Shown in pieces: positions 57,119 through 64,000 of a stretch of 64,000 nucleotides of DNA. Both the position numbers and the translations under genes were made by a program. The notes beneath the pieces were generated by a model. It saw only the letters and a list, made by a program, of their open reading frames with translations, was not told the DNA's origin and did no database searches. The stretch's first letter is position 1, and every line of letters starts with the position of its first letter. The stretch is from Fibrobacter sp. UWT2 (lineage in GTDB: Bacteria; Fibrobacterota; Fibrobacteria; Fibrobacterales; Fibrobacteraceae), in assembly GCF_900142545.1 (NCBI RefSeq), contig NZ_FRBF01000016.1:1-64000 (forward strand), in the 5' to 3' direction.

Positions 57119-57931
57119 TTACTTCAGCACAGCGTTCTTGCCGGAGACAGAGCCGTTGTGGTCAATACGAACAAGGTAACGACCGCTCGGAATGTTTTCA
57201 CCGTTCCAACGGAGCGTATTGAAGCCCGGCTGAGCGTTTTCGGCACGGAGCGTTGCCACTTCAGCACCATCGGAATTCAAGATGGTGACGATTGCAGTAC
57301 CGGCAGACTTCAAGTCAAAGCTAATGGCCTTGCGGGTAAAGCCCTTGAGGCTAGAAGAAGACTGCTTGGCAAGCTGCTGCTTGGGTGTCTTGGGCGCAAA
57401 CTCGTCGGCACGTTCGATGTAGATGCCGTTCAAGTTCGTAGCCTTCACCTTGGCGTCAGAGGCAACCAGCGAGCCCTGTTGGAGCACGGCAACCAGCTGT
57501 TTGCTGTTGCTTTCGGTTGCGCTTGCGTAGGTTTCAAGTTCCTGAGCGTTGAATTCAGCCTTATTGTACCAAGATTCCACCTTGGCGCTTTCCAGATCCT
57601 TCACAGTAATCTGGGCACGACGGATGGTAGCGGTATAGGTTTCGCCTTCACTCACGTACGTGATTTCAAGCGGTTTGTTCACCGTACCGCGAAGCATGGA
57701 CTTGGACTGTTCAATATCGTTACCCTTGAGGCTCACACCGTCAACGGCAGTAATCACGTCACCTGCCTGGAGCTTGGTATCAGCAGCAGGGGTACCCGGA
57801 ATCACTTCGGCAACCTTAACACCGTCACCGATTTGGTAAATGGTCACACCGATACCGCCGAATTCTTCGTCAGCCATGATCGGGGCAGCAAGCATCGCTG
57901 CAACAAGAGAAGCCTTGACAAACTTGTTCAT
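57119..57931 (-). CDS. Secreted PDZ-domain protein with C-terminal sorting-type domain
   Basis: A 270-residue exported protein; signal peptide 1-20 (ending MAD). A PDZ domain (about 24-108: GGIGVTIYQIGDGVKVAEVIPGTPAADTKLQAGDVITAVDGVSLKGNDIEQ) binds C-terminal or internal peptides, but no protease domain is attached. The centre is helical and the last 72 residues (RKAISFDLKSAGTAIVTILNSDGAEVATLRAENAQPGFNTLRWNGENIPSGRYLVRIDH) match a FlgD-like/type IX sorting-type beta-sandwich. AAGGAG 5 nt before the ATG. It could be an exported chaperone-like adaptor; no partner is obvious from context. Confidence 0.85.
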   Translation of the reverse strand: MNKFVKASLVAAMLAAPIMADEEFGGIGVTIYQIGDGVKVAEVIPGTPAADTKLQAGDVITAVDGVSLKGNDIEQSKSMLRGTVNKPLEITYVSEGETYTATIRRAQITVKDLESAKVESWYNKAEFNAQELETYASATESNSKQLVAVLQQGSLVASDAKVKATNLNGIYIERADEFAPKTPKQQLAKQSSSSLKGFTRKAISFDLKSAGTAIVTILNSDGAEVATLRAENAQPGFNTLRWNGENIPSGRYLVRIDHNGSVSGKNAVLK

Positions 57932-58072
57932 AAAAACTCCTTATAAATTCTATACGTTCTAAATATATAATAATTCACCGTTTCGGCAACTCCATTTGTT
58001 TGGATTATTCTGATTTTTGTCGTAACGGAGCCAAACCTTTACAAAAAAGCCTCAAAAAGCGATAAAACAGGC

Positions 58073-60352
58073 ATGAAGAAGAATTATTTTCAGGACATCG
58101 CCAAAAAACTCAACAAAAATACCCAAAATACCGAAAACGCAGGTCCGAACTTCGCCCTTCTTAAAATCACCGAATACTGGGTTCGCTTTCTGCAAGCAGA
58201 TCCCGATTACCTGAACGTCGAACCGCTTGTTACGCTCATGAATTTCGAGGCAAAGACCGAACTCGTCTACGCGCTCGCTAAAATCGAAGAAGAAAACCTA
58301 CGCCGCCCTGCCGCCGTTGCATCAAGAGTAAACTACTGTGGTCCCCATGGTCGTTCCTTTCTCCAAAAATACCCGAACAAAGATTACCATTTCGAAGTGC
58401 AGCACTGCATCAACAATATCAAGCAGCTCACCCGCGACGTATTTTCCGCCAACGAGTGGAAAAATTTCAAGGACATCATCATTCCGCTCTTCATGAAATT
58501 CGCCTGGGGTGAACTTTCTAAAGGCGTTCCCGAAAACAACGTTACCGTAGAACGAATCGAAAAATTGCAGAACATGTTCCACCTGCAAGATGACGAAATC
58601 GAAATCATTCTGTATCTCTGGTTGCAAGAATACGAAGAAATGGAAGTCACCTCCAAAAAGAAAGGACCTACGGCAGGCTCTCGCAGCCGTTACATCGAAA
58701 GAGATTTCGACCAGATTCCTATTGCAACAGGACTTTCTAAGCAGCGCGTATTGGAACTTACCGGCAGCGAATCGCTTCTTTCTAAGCTCGGAATCCTCAA
58801 TGAAGAATCCGATCTTGACCGCGATGTGGTATACCACCTGTGCGGACAAAACGAAATTACTAGGATCAGCAACATCGAAATGGCCGAAGCACCCAAGATT
58901 CCGTTCCCGATTCTCGCCAAGGATCGCCCCGAAGCAGACACGCTCACGTATCTGCTAAAAAATCATGATTACCAAAAATCGCTCAACATTCTGTTCTACG
59001 GTCGCGCAGGCACAGGCAAATCGGAACTTGCCAAAGCAATCGCTCAAGAAGTCGGGCTCCCGATGTATGTCATCAAGGCATCCGACAAGGGCGAACGCTT
59101 CTGTAACGACCTCACCAACATTGGCGACACGATTCTGCGCCGTCGCGTAAGATCCATTCGATTTGCCGCCATGAACAACCAAAACGCCAAAACGATCATT
59201 CTGGTCGACGAAGCAGACCAAATGCTGAACGGCCTCGAAAAAGGCGCACTCAATATGCTCATGGAAGATATCCACACGCCCATTATTTGGATTTCGAATT
59301 CCATGTCATTCGTACAAGAAAGCACCTGCCGTCGCTTTGACTTTTCGATGGAATTCAAGAACTTTACTGCCGAAAAGCGAGCAGTCCAGCTGCATTCCGT
59401 ACTGGAATCGCTCCATGTTCCCGACATGATTAGCGAAGAAGACATTCAGGCAATCGCCGCCGAATACCCCGTAACCGTAGGCGGATACACCAAGGCCATT
59501 CAAAATGCCATTCCTGCCGCCAAGCAGGACAAGGCCACCGCACTTTCCATTGTGCGCAAGACACTCGATGCCCACGCAAATCTCTTAAAAATTGAGCGGG
59601 ACAACACCCGCGAAAAAATGACGCATGCCCCGAGCTACGCGCTTACCGGGCTCAACATTGACCAAGACGTAGATGACATTCTCGAAGTCGCCGAAAATTT
59701 CAACCACATTTGGGAAAAACTTGACGGGAAATCGGCAGCCCAGTCGCTCAACCTGCTTCTTTACGGCGCCCCGGGCACCGGCAAGACCGAATTCGTACGA
59801 TTCATCGCCCGCAAGCTGAACCGGAACCTGGTCATTAAGCGGGCAAGCGATTTGCTCGGCATGTATGTAGGCGAAACCGAGGCGAACATCAAGGCAGCCT
59901 TCGAAGAAGCCGAAGAAAGCAAGGCCATCCTCTTCTTCGACGAAGCTGACAGCTTCTTAAACAACCGCGGCAACGCTAACTACAGCTACGAAGTCCGCCA
60001 AGTGAACGAGCTCTTGACACAAATGGAAAACTTTAACGGCATCTTTATTGCCGCCACCAACTTTAACGATCGCCTCGACAATGCATCTATGCGGCGTTTT
60101 GCATTCAAGGTGAAGTTCGACTACCTGAACACCGCTGGAATCGAAACCGTATGGCAGTCATTCTTCCCTAAAATCAAGTGTCCCGAACATGTCAAGCGTA
60201 TGACCATGCTTGCCCCAGGCGACTTCAACGCAGTCTACACACAGCTGCGTTACATGCCCACGAAAAAGCTCACCGCCGACTGCATCGCCGCTGCACTCGA
60301 GCGTGAAATCGCCGCGAAGGACGCTCGAGTAAATCGCCACATGGGATTCTAA
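58073..60352 (+). CDS. Double-AAA+ ATPase with unique N-terminal domain
   Basis: A 759-residue protein with two AAA+ modules. Module 1: Walker A GRAGTGKS (310-317), Walker B ILVDEAD (376-382), Arg finger region RR (420-421). Module 2: Walker A GAPGTGKT (565-572), Walker B FFDEAD (621-626), Arg pair RR near 674. Residues 1-275 are helical and resemble none of my known N-domains; they contain CGPHGRSF and a KKKGPTAGSRSR basic stretch. The architecture recalls CDC48/VAT-type or ClpB-like unfoldases, but no substrate domain is recognised. The start has no strong ribosome binding site (ACAGGC before the ATG). It is divergent to the PDZ gene and faces two paralogous genes of the minus strand. Confidence 0.85.
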   Translation: MKKNYFQDIAKKLNKNTQNTENAGPNFALLKITEYWVRFLQADPDYLNVEPLVTLMNFEAKTELVYALAKIEEENLRRPAAVASRVNYCGPHGRSFLQKYPNKDYHFEVQHCINNIKQLTRDVFSANEWKNFKDIIIPLFMKFAWGELSKGVPENNVTVERIEKLQNMFHLQDDEIEIILYLWLQEYEEMEVTSKKKGPTAGSRSRYIERDFDQIPIATGLSKQRVLELTGSESLLSKLGILNEESDLDRDVVYHLCGQNEITRISNIEMAEAPKIPFPILAKDRPEADTLTYLLKNHDYQKSLNILFYGRAGTGKSELAKAIAQEVGLPMYVIKASDKGERFCNDLTNIGDTILRRRVRSIRFAAMNNQNAKTIILVDEADQMLNGLEKGALNMLMEDIHTPIIWISNSMSFVQESTCRRFDFSMEFKNFTAEKRAVQLHSVLESLHVPDMISEEDIQAIAAEYPVTVGGYTKAIQNAIPAAKQDKATALSIVRKTLDAHANLLKIERDNTREKMTHAPSYALTGLNIDQDVDDILEVAENFNHIWEKLDGKSAAQSLNLLLYGAPGTGKTEFVRFIARKLNRNLVIKRASDLLGMYVGETEANIKAAFEEAEESKAILFFDEADSFLNNRGNANYSYEVRQVNELLTQMENFNGIFIAATNFNDRLDNASMRRFAFKVKFDYLNTAGIETVWQSFFPKIKCPEHVKRMTMLAPGDFNAVYTQLRYMPTKKLTADCIAAALEREIAAKDARVNRHMGF

Positions 60353-60357
60353 AAAAT

Positions 60358-60387
60358 GACCCGCCGGCTTTACCGACGGGTTTAATT
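60358..60387 (+). terminator. Rho-independent terminator after the AAA+ gene
   Basis: ACCCGCCGG CTTTA CCGACGGGT with one mismatch, followed by TTTAATTTT. Confidence 0.8.
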
Positions 60388-60419
60388 TTGCAATACAGTT
60401 ACCAGTTAATGAAGAAGCA

Positions 60420-61667
60420 TCACTTATTTTTTAGGGCATCCGAAATGTAGCAGATTTTTTCTTCGGTTCGAAGCCCCAAATAGTCGCCTTCAAAATCATC
60501 GCCAGTCACATTTTTCTGCGAATAGCAAACCGAATCATTGCGGTTCATTTCGGCGACATCGCTTGCATGGTACCCACGCAGCAAGTCTTCATGCTTTTTA
60601 ACATATTCCACTTTTTCCTGAAAAGTGTACAGGTTGATAAACTTATCCGGATCGCATAAATGCATCAAGCCATTACGAATCTGAGCCGGAGAATCCTTCC
60701 TGACTTTCAGCACGAATTCAACTAGAGCCGCCTTGACCTCGTCCACGTTGTCAAACTTAGGTCTGTTCGGCCAAGAAAGAAAACGTTCAAAAACAGAATA
60801 AATCAATTTCAAGTCGCTTTTCTTTCCGACCTGCATTTCCCACAAACCGGCGTTGCCATACTCCTGGCGTTCTAATCCCAGAAATTCTCCATACGCTCCG
60901 CATTCCGTATCTACACCTTCGGCACCTAAAGTCCATAGCCAGTGCAAATGCGCAGCAATCAGCAATTTCTTGGAATTTTTTTCCTTAAACTCCTTAAAAT
61001 ACGCCAAAGCATCTTCGTAAGCCTTTTGGCGTTTATCAAAATTCTCTGCTTTTTCGGCACACGCCTGTTTATAGCGCTCCATACGCTCCGCCACTTTCTG
61101 CTCACGTATCTTTATTTTGTCAAGTACCTTCTGGTAACGAGCCTGGAACTGTTCTTCGGTTTCCGTCTTCTTTTTCTTGGGCATTTTAACTTCGTTAAAA
61201 CAATCCATTTCTTTCGGCTTCTTGGGCAACTTGGCGCATTCACCCGGATCAGACGGAATAGACGGATAATCGGAATCCGGCATACTCAAGAAATCGAGTA
61301 CCTCAGCCTTGTACCCATTACAGTCGCTCGTATAATCATCAAAACGATCGTCATCGTGAGCCACGTCGTTTTCATAAACCTGAAAACGCTTCTTGAACTT
61401 AAAATAAGACTCGCCCTGATTTCTTGACGGTCTTTCCGTCCAGTTAAAGGGTTGAGAGCCAAGAATCAGCTCGGTAAAACTCTGGTCTGTACCCGCAAAT
61501 TCAATGGAGCCATCTTCGTTCTCTATCGCCGGCTTCGAAAAATCGATTACTCGATCTTCAATGACAGTCTTTTTCAAGAACGCATCGAACAAACGGTAGA
61601 TGCGTTCACACCCCGCTTTCATAAAGCGAGCAGAAGACTCTGAACCCAAATTGCTGACATTGACCAT
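60420..61667 (-). CDS. McrB-associated N-terminal-domain-like protein with inserted coiled coil
   Basis: A 415-residue protein from the ATG at 61667 (AGAGG 6 nt upstream); the longer frame upstream lies in the neighbouring gene. Its ends match the adjacent gene at 61729: RIYRLFDAFLKKTVIEDRVIDFSKPAIENEDGSIEFA near the N-terminus, then LIAAHLHWLWTLGAEGVDTECGAYGEFLGLE, RFLSWPNRPKF, IRNGLMHLCDPDKFINLYTFQEKVEYVKKHEDLL and TEEKICYISDAL. The block 'IRNGLxHLCDPDxFINLYxxxEKxxYV' resembles the N-terminal region in McrB-type AAA proteins (HLLFPDxFERI...K..I); family membership is inferred. Between the blocks lies a Lys/Glu/Arg-rich coiled-coil insertion of about 110 residues absent from the neighbour. 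No AAA motor is attached. Confidence 0.65.
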   Translation of the reverse strand: MVNVSNLGSESSARFMKAGCERIYRLFDAFLKKTVIEDRVIDFSKPAIENEDGSIEFAGTDQSFTELILGSQPFNWTERPSRNQGESYFKFKKRFQVYENDVAHDDDRFDDYTSDCNGYKAEVLDFLSMPDSDYPSIPSDPGECAKLPKKPKEMDCFNEVKMPKKKKTETEEQFQARYQKVLDKIKIREQKVAERMERYKQACAEKAENFDKRQKAYEDALAYFKEFKEKNSKKLLIAAHLHWLWTLGAEGVDTECGAYGEFLGLERQEYGNAGLWEMQVGKKSDLKLIYSVFERFLSWPNRPKFDNVDEVKAALVEFVLKVRKDSPAQIRNGLMHLCDPDKFINLYTFQEKVEYVKKHEDLLRGYHASDVAEMNRNDSVCYSQKNVTGDDFEGDYLGLRTEEKICYISDALKNK

Positions 61668-61728
61668 GTGTACCTCTTGTGTTGAAACTAATATTTTTTT
61701 AGTAGAAAAGGGACAAAAATGGAAAAAA

Positions 61729-62646
61729 CTAGAGCGCCTCGCACATTCTGTCAAAGATGTAACGGATTTTATCTTCAGTGCGGTCGGCACGGTAAACGTT
61801 ATTGTCATCCACCTTGCCGATTCGCTTAGAATAATAGACACTATCCTGAGCCTGAAGTGTTGTATAACCTTCAGCCTTGTAATTCTGCAAGAACGACGAG
61901 TGGCTTGCAATATAGTCCAACTTCAATTCGTAAGAATAGAGATTAATATACATGTCGGGGTCACACAAGTGCAACAAACCGTTACGAATCGGAGCGTCAA
62001 GATCGATTCGAGTCTTGAAAATGAAGTCAATCATCGCTGACTTGACCTGATCAACATCCTGGAATTCCGGCTTGTTCGGCCAGGTTAAAAAACGGTGAAG
62101 AATGGAATAAATCAGCAATAGTTCCTTTTTCAAGCCCATTGCAGAGACGCGAGCAAACCACAAGCCCTGATCCACTTTATAATCTTCGACATTTTCAGCC
62201 CAATGTTCCTCAATACCCGCAAACTTGCCGAACTTTCCGCACGACGTTTTAACGCCCGACATTCCCAGAGACCACAACCAGTACAAATGTGCAACCAGAA
62301 GCAATTCGCTCTTATGGAATTCCTTCCATGCAACGTCTTTACAAAGCTCCCTTAAAACAGCAGCCGGAGCCTTGATAATAGTTTCGACACTCTTTTTATA
62401 CTGTTCGCCGCCATTTTTGCCGCAAACCAGCTCGGAAAACGAGATTTCTTCGCCATTTTCGCCAAACAGCTTAGCGAAATCAATAGAGCTGTCTTGATAG
62501 TCTATCGCGCACTTCGAAAAATCGACTGCGCGATTTTCCATCATGGTGCATTCAACGAACCCCGCGAACAGATTATAGATGGGTTCATATTCGTTGACCA
62601 TGAAACGGTCTAATACATGGATGTTATTGATTTTAGTCATTTCCAT
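61729..62646 (-). CDS. McrB-associated N-terminal-domain-like protein (short paralogue)
   Basis: A 305-residue paralogue of the gene at 60420. I took the ATG at 62646 (GAGG 7 nt upstream); an in-frame GTG (62658) and ATG (62640) are alternatives. The shared blocks are present: PIYNLFAGFVECTMMENRAVDFSKCAIDYQDSSIDFA, LLVAHLYWLWSLGMSGVKTSCGKFGKFAGIEE, RFLTWPNKPEF, IRNGLLHLCDPDMYINLYSYELKLDYIASHSSFL and TEDKIRYIFDRM, without the coiled insertion. It precedes the longer paralogue in the same direction (61 nt between), so both probably come from one transcript. Tandem duplication, followed by insertion into one copy, explains the pair. Confidence 0.65.
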   Translation of the reverse strand: MEMTKINNIHVLDRFMVNEYEPIYNLFAGFVECTMMENRAVDFSKCAIDYQDSSIDFAKLFGENGEEISFSELVCGKNGGEQYKKSVETIIKAPAAVLRELCKDVAWKEFHKSELLLVAHLYWLWSLGMSGVKTSCGKFGKFAGIEEHWAENVEDYKVDQGLWFARVSAMGLKKELLLIYSILHRFLTWPNKPEFQDVDQVKSAMIDFIFKTRIDLDAPIRNGLLHLCDPDMYINLYSYELKLDYIASHSSFLQNYKAEGYTTLQAQDSVYYSKRIGKVDDNNVYRADRTEDKIRYIFDRMCEAL

Positions 62647-62658
62647 AAGGAGCCTCAC

Positions 62659-62913
62659 TTTTGATTGAATTTTTTGAAAAAAAATTTGAAGTTTTAAGGG
62701 GAGTTTTGAGTGGATATAGGGGTAAAACCAGAAATATTACTATTTCTAACAAATTAAAAAATCAAAATTTTAAATTAAAAAATTAAATCACCAAACCCAT
62801 AAGCTTATCAAATATAGTAAAAAATGTCATTTTTGTAAAGAGCATTATTTGACAATAATTGTCATTTGACAAAAACGTTATTGATGGCGATAAGACAAAA
62901 AAAGGAGATTATT
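62659..62913. other. AT-rich divergent intergenic region
   Basis: About 250 bases of strongly A+T-rich sequence between the McrB-like pair and the caspase-fold candidate. It contains the imperfect direct repeat TTTGACAATAATTGTCATTTGACAAAAACG (62849-62878) with ATTGTCATTTGACAA palindrome-like arms, a possible operator. No gene is seen. Confidence 0.5.
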
Positions 62914-63474
62914 ATGGATTCATGTACCGTCATTTTTTCAAACATGGGCGACACCGACACGCTGGTTCTCAAGCACATCTGGGAAGGTCTCCCCAACGTA
63001 AAGGTTGTCGAAGTCAACAACCACAACGGTCCCTGGGCTAAAAAAGTCAACTCCGCCATTCTAGCCGAAAAAGACACACTTATATTATGTGGTCACGGCT
63101 ACCCCAGCGGACTATTGTCGCCGCAAATGCACGGCGAACAGTTTCTCGTTTCCGAAAGGAATGTCCGTTACATCAAGGCAAAGCGAGTCATCGGGATCTG
63201 GTGTTACGCATCGTCGTTCGCCAAAAGTGTCAATCTGAATGGATTTTTCTCGTCGATGTTCATCAGCAACCCTATCGAAGCGCACATCAATGGTTGCACC
63301 CGTTCCGATGCGGCAACCATCACCCGCGAAGAAATTCTGTTCGGCCAGCGTCTGAACCAGCTCATCGCAAGTGACACCCCCATGAGCGAATGGAAGGACA
63401 AGCTGATCGACCAGGCCGACATGAACATCGATATCGTCAGGTTCAATTATAAGGGACTGACGTATTTGAAATAA
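62914..63474 (+). CDS. Caspase-fold-like small protein (putative Cys peptidase)
   Basis: A 186-residue protein from the ATG at 62914 (AAAGGAG 7 nt upstream). The pattern is that of a minimal caspase-like alpha/beta fold: strand CTVIFSNMGDTDTLVL, strand TLILCGHGYPSGLL with the candidate catalytic His in GHG, and strand RVIGIWCYASSFAKSV with the candidate nucleophile Cys in WCYAS. A normal bacterial caspase/CHAT pair reads GHGxxxGL and CxSxxF, so the spacing is right; other parts (NPIEAHINGCTRSDAATITREEILFG) do not match a known subfamily. It stands alone without prodomain. Function inferred as proteolytic; the alternative is a catalytically inert alpha/beta protein. Confidence 0.55.
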   Translation: MDSCTVIFSNMGDTDTLVLKHIWEGLPNVKVVEVNNHNGPWAKKVNSAILAEKDTLILCGHGYPSGLLSPQMHGEQFLVSERNVRYIKAKRVIGIWCYASSFAKSVNLNGFFSSMFISNPIEAHINGCTRSDAATITREEILFGQRLNQLIASDTPMSEWKDKLIDQADMNIDIVRFNYKGLTYLK

Positions 63475-63481
63475 TAGACAA

Positions 63482-63501
63482 GGGAGGGGTTGCCCCCTCC
63501 C
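63482..63501 (+). terminator. Hairpin without T tract after the caspase-like gene
   Basis: GGGAGGGG TTG CCCCCTCCC just past the stop codon. Strong stem, but no T run, so termination is uncertain. Confidence 0.4.
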
Positions 63502-63561
63502 TAAGACCCTCCTTACACTCGGAACAAGTTCCTTCGTGGGCACCTTCGGTGCAGAAGACTA

Positions 63562-63993
63562 TTATATATAATAATCGAAATCGTCTTCCGGCAATTGAGC
63601 GGCGACTCGGAGTTCATCATATTTACAACGAGCTCCTTTAAACATTTCTCTATATCCCGTACCTACAACGTTTCGCAAGTCCCAATGGCGAACATCGCCC
63701 TCAAATTGAGAATTTTCAAACATAGAACCAGCCCCAATAACATTGGAAACGTCCCATTGGCTGATATCGCCATTGAATTGCGAATTCTTGAACATTTCGT
63801 GCATATACGTAACATTAGAAACATCCCACTGGCTGATATCGCCGTTAAACGGAGAGTTCAAAAACAATTCGCTCATATCCGTCACATTTGACACATCAAT
63901 GTAGTTCAAGTCACATTCATTTCCATTTCTTTCAATAGCCACTTCTATAATTTTTTTAAGATGATCCCGATCCCAGGCAACAGCTTTATTCAC
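63562..63993 (-). CDS. DUF285 (BspA-type) repeat protein, probably truncated by the window edge
   Basis: A protein of at least 143 aa consisting of DUF285-type repeats, each of about 34 residues: [72 protein letters not shown] and [16 protein letters not shown]. The frame is still open at the right window edge, and a GTG at 63993 is the only start candidate inside; the true start may lie beyond 64000. Such repeats form leucine-rich-like surfaces and are often on secreted proteins, but no signal sequence is visible. It has no ribosome binding site in view. Confidence 0.75.
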
Positions 63994-64000
63994 AGGTCTC

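Follow-up and report, generated by a model that had tools for sequence, protein, structure and literature searches.

An AAA+ ATPase and caspase-fold gene pair on a hotspot island of Fibrobacter, and the phage-rich family of its caspase-fold member

Genes of the island and its insertion site

The window analyzed here is a 64,000-nucleotide stretch of DNA (G000:C16:1-64000) from a 3.49 Mb genome of the genus Fibrobacter, and its right-hand end carries a group of five open reading frames (ORFs) of mixed orientation. The first gene (58073..60352, + strand) encodes a double AAA+ ATPase of 759 aa, composed of an N-domain (residues ~1-275), two AAA modules (AAA1, ~300-430, and AAA2, ~557-700), and a C-terminal RHMGF tail. 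Two paralogous genes follow on the − strand and are referred to here as the helical pair, in which the second member (60420..61667, ~415 aa, with an ATG at ~61667) lies to the left of the first (61729..62646, ~305 aa). The next gene (62914..63474, + strand) encodes a caspase-fold (clan CD-like) protein of 186 aa, with a putative dyad of His61 (GHG) and Cys97 (IWC), and is followed on the − strand by a DUF285 gene of the PARCEL repeat type (63562..64000; PF03382, E 5.4e-27), of which the window holds only a part. The complete ORF is 374 aa long in the extended locus (L001). The genes named in the preliminary description of this DNA, including the DUF285 gene, are all present as ORFs.

The insertion extends beyond the interval of 58073-63993 originally delimited around these genes, and covers approximately 10.9 kb of the contig (57932-68804), of which 57932..64000 falls within the window. 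In the window's genome, this unit parts a PDZ-domain gene on the left (57119..57931, − strand; Pfam PDZ), which is a conserved flank outside the module and is found in 79/80 genomes, from the right-flank gene, F14. The unit is missing at the same site in five relatives (G029, G162, G138, G089, and G005), where the PDZ gene and F14 lie ~130 bp apart, and the PDZ protein of one of these genomes (G029) is 97% identical to that of the window. The GC content of the island is mostly 0.35-0.46, against about 0.50-0.54 in the flanks. Past the window, the right part of the island holds a second DUF285-type gene, located after the first, a 133-aa ORF (F5), another variable gene, and an ADP-ribosylglycohydrolase. 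The F5 ORF (L001:9832-10233; contig 65831-66232) is apparently truncated here, its relatives being P-loop proteins of 504-562 aa.

Among the 30 PDZ loci examined, F14 is located directly after or near the PDZ gene in 25, and the ATPase is found there in four, while neither gene is within reach of the PDZ gene in one genome, G080. The insert found at the same site in G080 (L331:2938-7382, G080:C2) is an LlaJI-type restriction-modification set, made up of a C5 cytosine methylase (PF00145, E 3.8e-80), an AAA_5 protein, and an LlaJI-type endonuclease (PF09563, E 5.3e-35), and is the one alternative insert with known defense genes at this site. Given the empty site in five relatives and the set present in G080, the site is an insertion hotspot, which carries restriction-modification genes in one species. 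These findings suggest that the module rides a mobile island, and the island location alone is no proof of a role in defense.

The helical proteins had been likened to the N-terminal domain of McrB. Their paralogy is upheld by the alignment (42% identity, with an alignable C-terminal region that bears an RNGLLHLCDP-type motif), but the McrB resemblance is not, given that the pair returned no match of weight in Pfam, NCBIfam, or PADLOC, no profile match in the PDB, no fold match, and no AAA-fused relative in a profile search of 151 genomes. The AlphaFold2 model of the first member is mostly helical, with a pLDDT of 82, and one fold search (E<3) recovered no match. In the 151 genomes, the profile of the pair matches sequences of the same bacterial family only, with the long forms being found in the genomes that carry the ATPase ortholog, and in G028. 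A paralogue of ~235-240 aa is present independently in many Fibrobacter genomes, and at several of the loci of the ~235-aa form (L046, L049, L051, and L055) it is located beside a RecD-like helicase gene.

The helical pair and the DUF285 genes lie on the strand opposite the ATPase, and their number, position, and strand vary between loci. It is for this reason, the variability and the opposite strand of the middle and right-hand genes, that a fixed five-gene system is rejected. The helical pair is treated here as accessory cargo tied to the island, and the DUF285 gene lies outside the conserved pair.

A phage-rich family of caspase-fold proteins

The AlphaFold2 model of the 186-aa protein has a pLDDT of 96.3 and a pTM of 0.92. 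In this model, a strand at residues 55-59 is followed by G60-H61-G62, and a strand at 91-95 by W96-C97, which puts the His and the Cys immediately behind the strands equivalent to beta3 and beta4 in a sheet of the caspase type. This is the placement of the dyad in clan CD, where the His comes after beta3 and the Cys after beta4 (PMC4357240). Foldseek matched the model to a Megaviridae caspase (E 1.9e-4, prob 1.00) and, among the solved structures, to gingipain RgpB (prob 0.93, TMq 0.53, but E 0.03), the other PDB fold matches being weak and mixed in fold class, with the best E-value (5.5e-3) belonging to an unrelated aminotransferase. In the aligned relatives that span the site, down to ~25% identity, H61 is present in 100/100 and C97 in 102/102; the GHG and WC motifs are conserved, and M115, S118, E122, and N178 are also invariant. 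Searches of Pfam, NCBIfam, PHROGs, PADLOC, and the PDB recovered no sequence match of weight for this family.

The caspase-like assignment made initially from the GHG...WC pattern is thus borne out by the model, its viral caspase and gingipain matches, and the invariant dyad. A caspase-type fold is highly likely, and an active cysteine peptidase is a likely prediction. The protein might, by contrast, be some other enzyme, or a binding protein, in which the His/Cys pair acts together with the further invariant residues, which form a pattern that is not known to occur in caspases, and the weak, mixed PDB matches are consistent with such a role. This is nevertheless highly improbable, given that the topology and the placement of the dyad fit clan CD, and that the ClpP and AAA+ neighbors described below fit proteolysis.

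Members of the family were found in at least 235 stretches of viral contigs, and the best 79 of these 235 loci were examined. The contigs of these 79 loci have a median length of 118 kb, and 24/79 are of at least 200 kb (raw lengths). Stand-alone members with 38-40% identity are also encoded in all 15 of the listed records of Lak megaphages. These matches suggest that large phages, among them the Lak megaphages of the gut, commonly carry the family. In the phage neighborhoods examined, no partner is conserved throughout and no AAA+ neighbor was found, and the search of plasmids recovered no match. The copy of phage Lak-B5 (L094:7176-7730) comes after FolD-like and phosphoribosyltransferase-like genes.

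In the family tree, the bacterial copies are scattered or nested among the viral ones, and at least seven changes are needed to account for them; the tree is unrooted, so that transfer between phages and bacteria may have gone in either direction. This unnamed, phage-rich family of caspase-fold proteins is the most surprising part of the locus, and its annotation could be added straight away to a large number of viral genomes. The literature search recovered no paper joining “Lak phage” with “caspase”.

The ATPase and its pairing with the caspase-like gene

The PF00004 profile matches the ATPase over two stretches (E 1.2e-44), Walker A and Walker B are retained in each of the two AAA modules, and the closest solved relatives are Cdc48/p97 (PDB profile E ~1e-49). 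Together with the N-terminal ~275 residues, which returned no match in Pfam or the PDB, this agrees with the two-motor AAA+ ATPase with a new N-domain of the preliminary description. An aromatic pore residue, which is typical of threading AAA+ proteins, is found in AAA2 at position 598 in 19/20 sequences.

At the C-terminus, G758 is invariant, and all of the members end in [MIL]-G-[FL], mostly with Met in the first position. In the compared loci, where the genes were ORFs picked by length and codon use, a [LIVMP]-G-[FL] tail is found in 28/28 of the AAA proteins, as against 7/521 of the other proteins, although the 28 are not independent, being for the most part homologs of one another. Nine further AAA proteins from Fibrobacter have no such tail. 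The motif through which the Clp ATPases dock on ClpP is (L/I/V)-G-(F/L), located on internal loops (PMC8745299). The MGF tail resembles this IGF motif, and the window's genome has two ClpP genes; docking on ClpP may reasonably be predicted from this resemblance, with an even chance of being correct, although the known motif sits on internal loops and the tail lies at the C-terminus. The tail argues for docking on ClpP, and not for the pairing, since it is shared by paralogues that have no caspase-like neighbor.

These paralogues (~35-45% identity) are found elsewhere in the genus, and regularly occur without the caspase-like gene and the other neighbors. The independent occurrence of the ATPase, which had been raised as a point against a joint system, is thus real for the paralogues, but not for the ortholog, which in the 80 genomes is always accompanied by the caspase-like gene. 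In one paralogue of the window's genome (G000:C7:98654-100925; L119:4652-7016), a frameshift has probably divided the gene into two ORFs that overlap. Paralogues of other subgroups are located beside or near WYL/WCX-type regulator genes (L085:2204-3232, L087:7963-8979, L088:4184-5230, and L119:828-2042), an arrangement often met with defense genes.

The 80 Fibrobacter genomes were searched with the ATPase, with matches of E<=1e-180 (53-78% identity) counted as the ortholog, and, by profile, for the caspase-like family. The ATPase ortholog was found in 10/80 genomes, and the caspase-like gene in 12/80. The caspase-like gene is present in 10/10 of the genomes with the ortholog versus 2/70 of the others (Fisher 4e-11, uncorrected for relatedness, a value that overstates independence because the species are related). 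Over 11 loci, the identity values of one protein track those of the other (Mantel p 0.006), a correlation that could also result from shared ancestry alone.

The two genes share a locus and a strand in 8/10 of the genomes with the ortholog, and are on different contigs in G002 and G161. They are adjacent on the same strand in G013 (L073), with a gap of 99 bp, and at locus L101, with a gap of 12 bp, while genes of the opposite strand are inserted between the same-strand pair in G000, G036, G019, G034, G070, G163, and G062. These inserts are the helical pair, DUF285 genes, or, in G163, a VWA-VWA-PP2C-kinase set. Divergent copies of the caspase-like gene occur in G010 and G063, with no ATPase ortholog beside them or elsewhere in the genome, and the copy at L103 has no ortholog ATPase beside it. 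The insert of G163 (L273:2328-7895, G163:C151) is on the minus strand and is reminiscent of the TerY-type signaling sets. VWA-like genes, two of them without a Pfam match at 1e-5, are located near four caspase loci (L098, L100, L115, and L268), possibly by chance.

What is conserved is the double-AAA+ ATPase together with the small caspase-like protein, and, on the comparative evidence, the two probably form a functional pair. The locus is more than a chance neighborhood, and narrower than the undescribed joint system first envisaged, of which the ATPase/caspase-fold pair on a hotspot island stands and the fixed set of five genes does not.

Outside Fibrobacter, the caspase-like gene closes a compact operon in the Spirochaetales, after an AAA+ gene of the AAA_lid_6 type and a ClpP gene (PF00574, E 1.5e-67), with gaps of ~10 bp. 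This operon was located at L106:3394-6579, L107:3-2852, and L274:6365-9550, and its AAA+ protein ends in MGFSA; we know of no name for a proteolytic operon of this type. In the Bacteroidales, two copies are near AAA+ genes, one with a gap of 23 bp (L112) and the other with one ORF in between (L111), and the tails of these AAA+ proteins are IGFAC and IGFSS. Most of the other bacterial copies, including most of those of the Bacteroidota, have no AAA+ neighbor. The AAA+-linked copies of the Spirochaetales, Bacteroidales, and Fibrobacter are on separate branches of the tree, and the pairing with AAA+ proteins has, for this reason, probably arisen more than once.

It is conceivable, and on balance rather unlikely, that the island is a site of mixed cargo, where a proteostasis-type ATPase paralogue and a phage-derived, domesticated caspase-like passenger would travel together because they lie side by side, with no joint function. 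Most of the ATPase paralogues do lack these neighbors, unrelated cargo (DUF285 genes, VWA-PP2C-kinase, restriction-modification set) is found at or near the site, and the bacterial caspase-like copies are nested in a phage-rich tree. Mere proximity is argued against by the 10/10 co-occurrence, which includes two genomes where the genes are on different contigs, by the same-strand order that the pair keeps despite the inserts, and by the AAA+ neighbors of the caspase-like gene in two other phyla.

Proposed mode of action and comparison with known systems

The functional pair would, in the scheme proposed here, join a double-ring AAA+ unfoldase of the p97 kind, whose N-domain is specific to the family, to a small, stand-alone cysteine peptidase of the caspase fold. 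The N-domain would capture a target or cue, and the pore of AAA2 would thread the target. The unfoldase may dock on the ClpP of the cell via its [M/I/L]-G-[F/L] tail, and could hand over targets to it, while the peptidase would cut at specific sites, either nicking the targets to provide a grip for the motor, or taking its substrates from it. The order of these steps is as conjectural as the steps. Carried by a mobile island at a hotspot, the module would most likely act in anti-phage defense or stress proteolysis, and its peptidase family would have been swapped between large phages and bacteria.

As a general reading, and not in each of its steps, the joint proteolytic module of unfoldase and peptidase is about evenly balanced between right and wrong, and the same balance applies, as a separate question, to the prediction that the module serves in anti-phage defense. 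Overall, the findings suggest a protein-cutting module of stress or anti-phage type, which is undescribed as far as could be found; among the titles and abstracts listed in the literature searches, no AAA+/caspase pair was found. A more ambitious version, rather unlikely and given here only tentatively, would see a new type of AAA+ protease, in which a Cdc48-like, double-ring unfoldase docks on ClpP by its MGF tail and counters phages jointly with a dedicated peptidase of the caspase fold. The stand-alone versions of this peptidase in large phages would then serve takeover or counter-defense.

The caspase-fold protein might instead be a toxin-like effector held in check by the ATPase, or set free by it when a phage infects, with death of the cell (abortive infection) as the outcome. 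Caspase-fold effectors exist in bacterial immunity, as outlined for Craspase (PMC9729208), and the hotspot location would suit such a role. This alternative appears improbable, given that no conserved antitoxin-like gene accompanies the pair, and that the peptidase occurs by itself in phages and in several bacteria, so that it is not obviously toxic by default.

Within the literature searched, three things are newly linked by the proposed proteolytic module, namely an unnamed caspase-fold family with an invariant dyad that is common in large phages, its repeated pairing in bacteria with AAA+ proteins (and, in one lineage, with ClpP), and a hotspot where one related species has a restriction-modification set.

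A number of known systems share parts of this organization. The McrBC and LlaJI systems are linked to it by the LlaJI-type set found at the same insertion site in G080, but no McrB N-domain could be detected in the helical pair of the window, which also lacks a motor. The ATPase is similar to Cdc48/p97 and the VCP-like ATPases in its two classical AAA modules with Walker A/B, and differs from them in its N-domain (1-275), which has no p97/Cdc48 N-domain match in Pfam or the PDB, and in its MGF/MGL tail. The ClpXP, ClpAP, and ClpCP proteases have an AAA+ unfoldase with a hydrophobic-Gly-Phe/Leu motif, which the tail of the window's ATPase resembles, and a ClpP gene is present in the spirochaetal operon, whereas the AAA modules of the window's ATPase are of the Cdc48 type, its tail motif is at the extreme C-terminus, and there is an extra, caspase-like partner.

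The peptidases of clan CD (the caspases, C14, gingipain, C25, and clostripain, C11) resemble the small protein in their alpha/beta topology and the positions of the dyad, and the matches to the viral caspase and RgpB may point the same way. The window's family is distinct from these peptidases in being a stand-alone protein of 186 aa with invariants of its own (WC, M115, S118, E122, and N178), having no Pfam or PHROG model, and being mostly viral in the collections searched.

IetA-IetS is an anti-phage system formed by an AAA+ ATPase and a subtilisin-like protease. The window's ATPase departs from IetA in having two AAA modules and a different N-domain, and scored 143.1 bits against the cut-off of 510 of the NCBIfam equivalog, with the best stretch restricted to residues 531-706. 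The partner also differs, being of the caspase fold and not a subtilase, and Pfam recovered no subtilase match at E<=1 in the five genes (for the ATPase, among the best 25 of 50 families). What IetAS and the locus have in common is the combination of an AAA+ gene with a protease gene (in the locus, a predicted one), together with the match of the window's AAA2 to the IetA models (PADLOC, E 4.6e-46; NCBIfam, partial).
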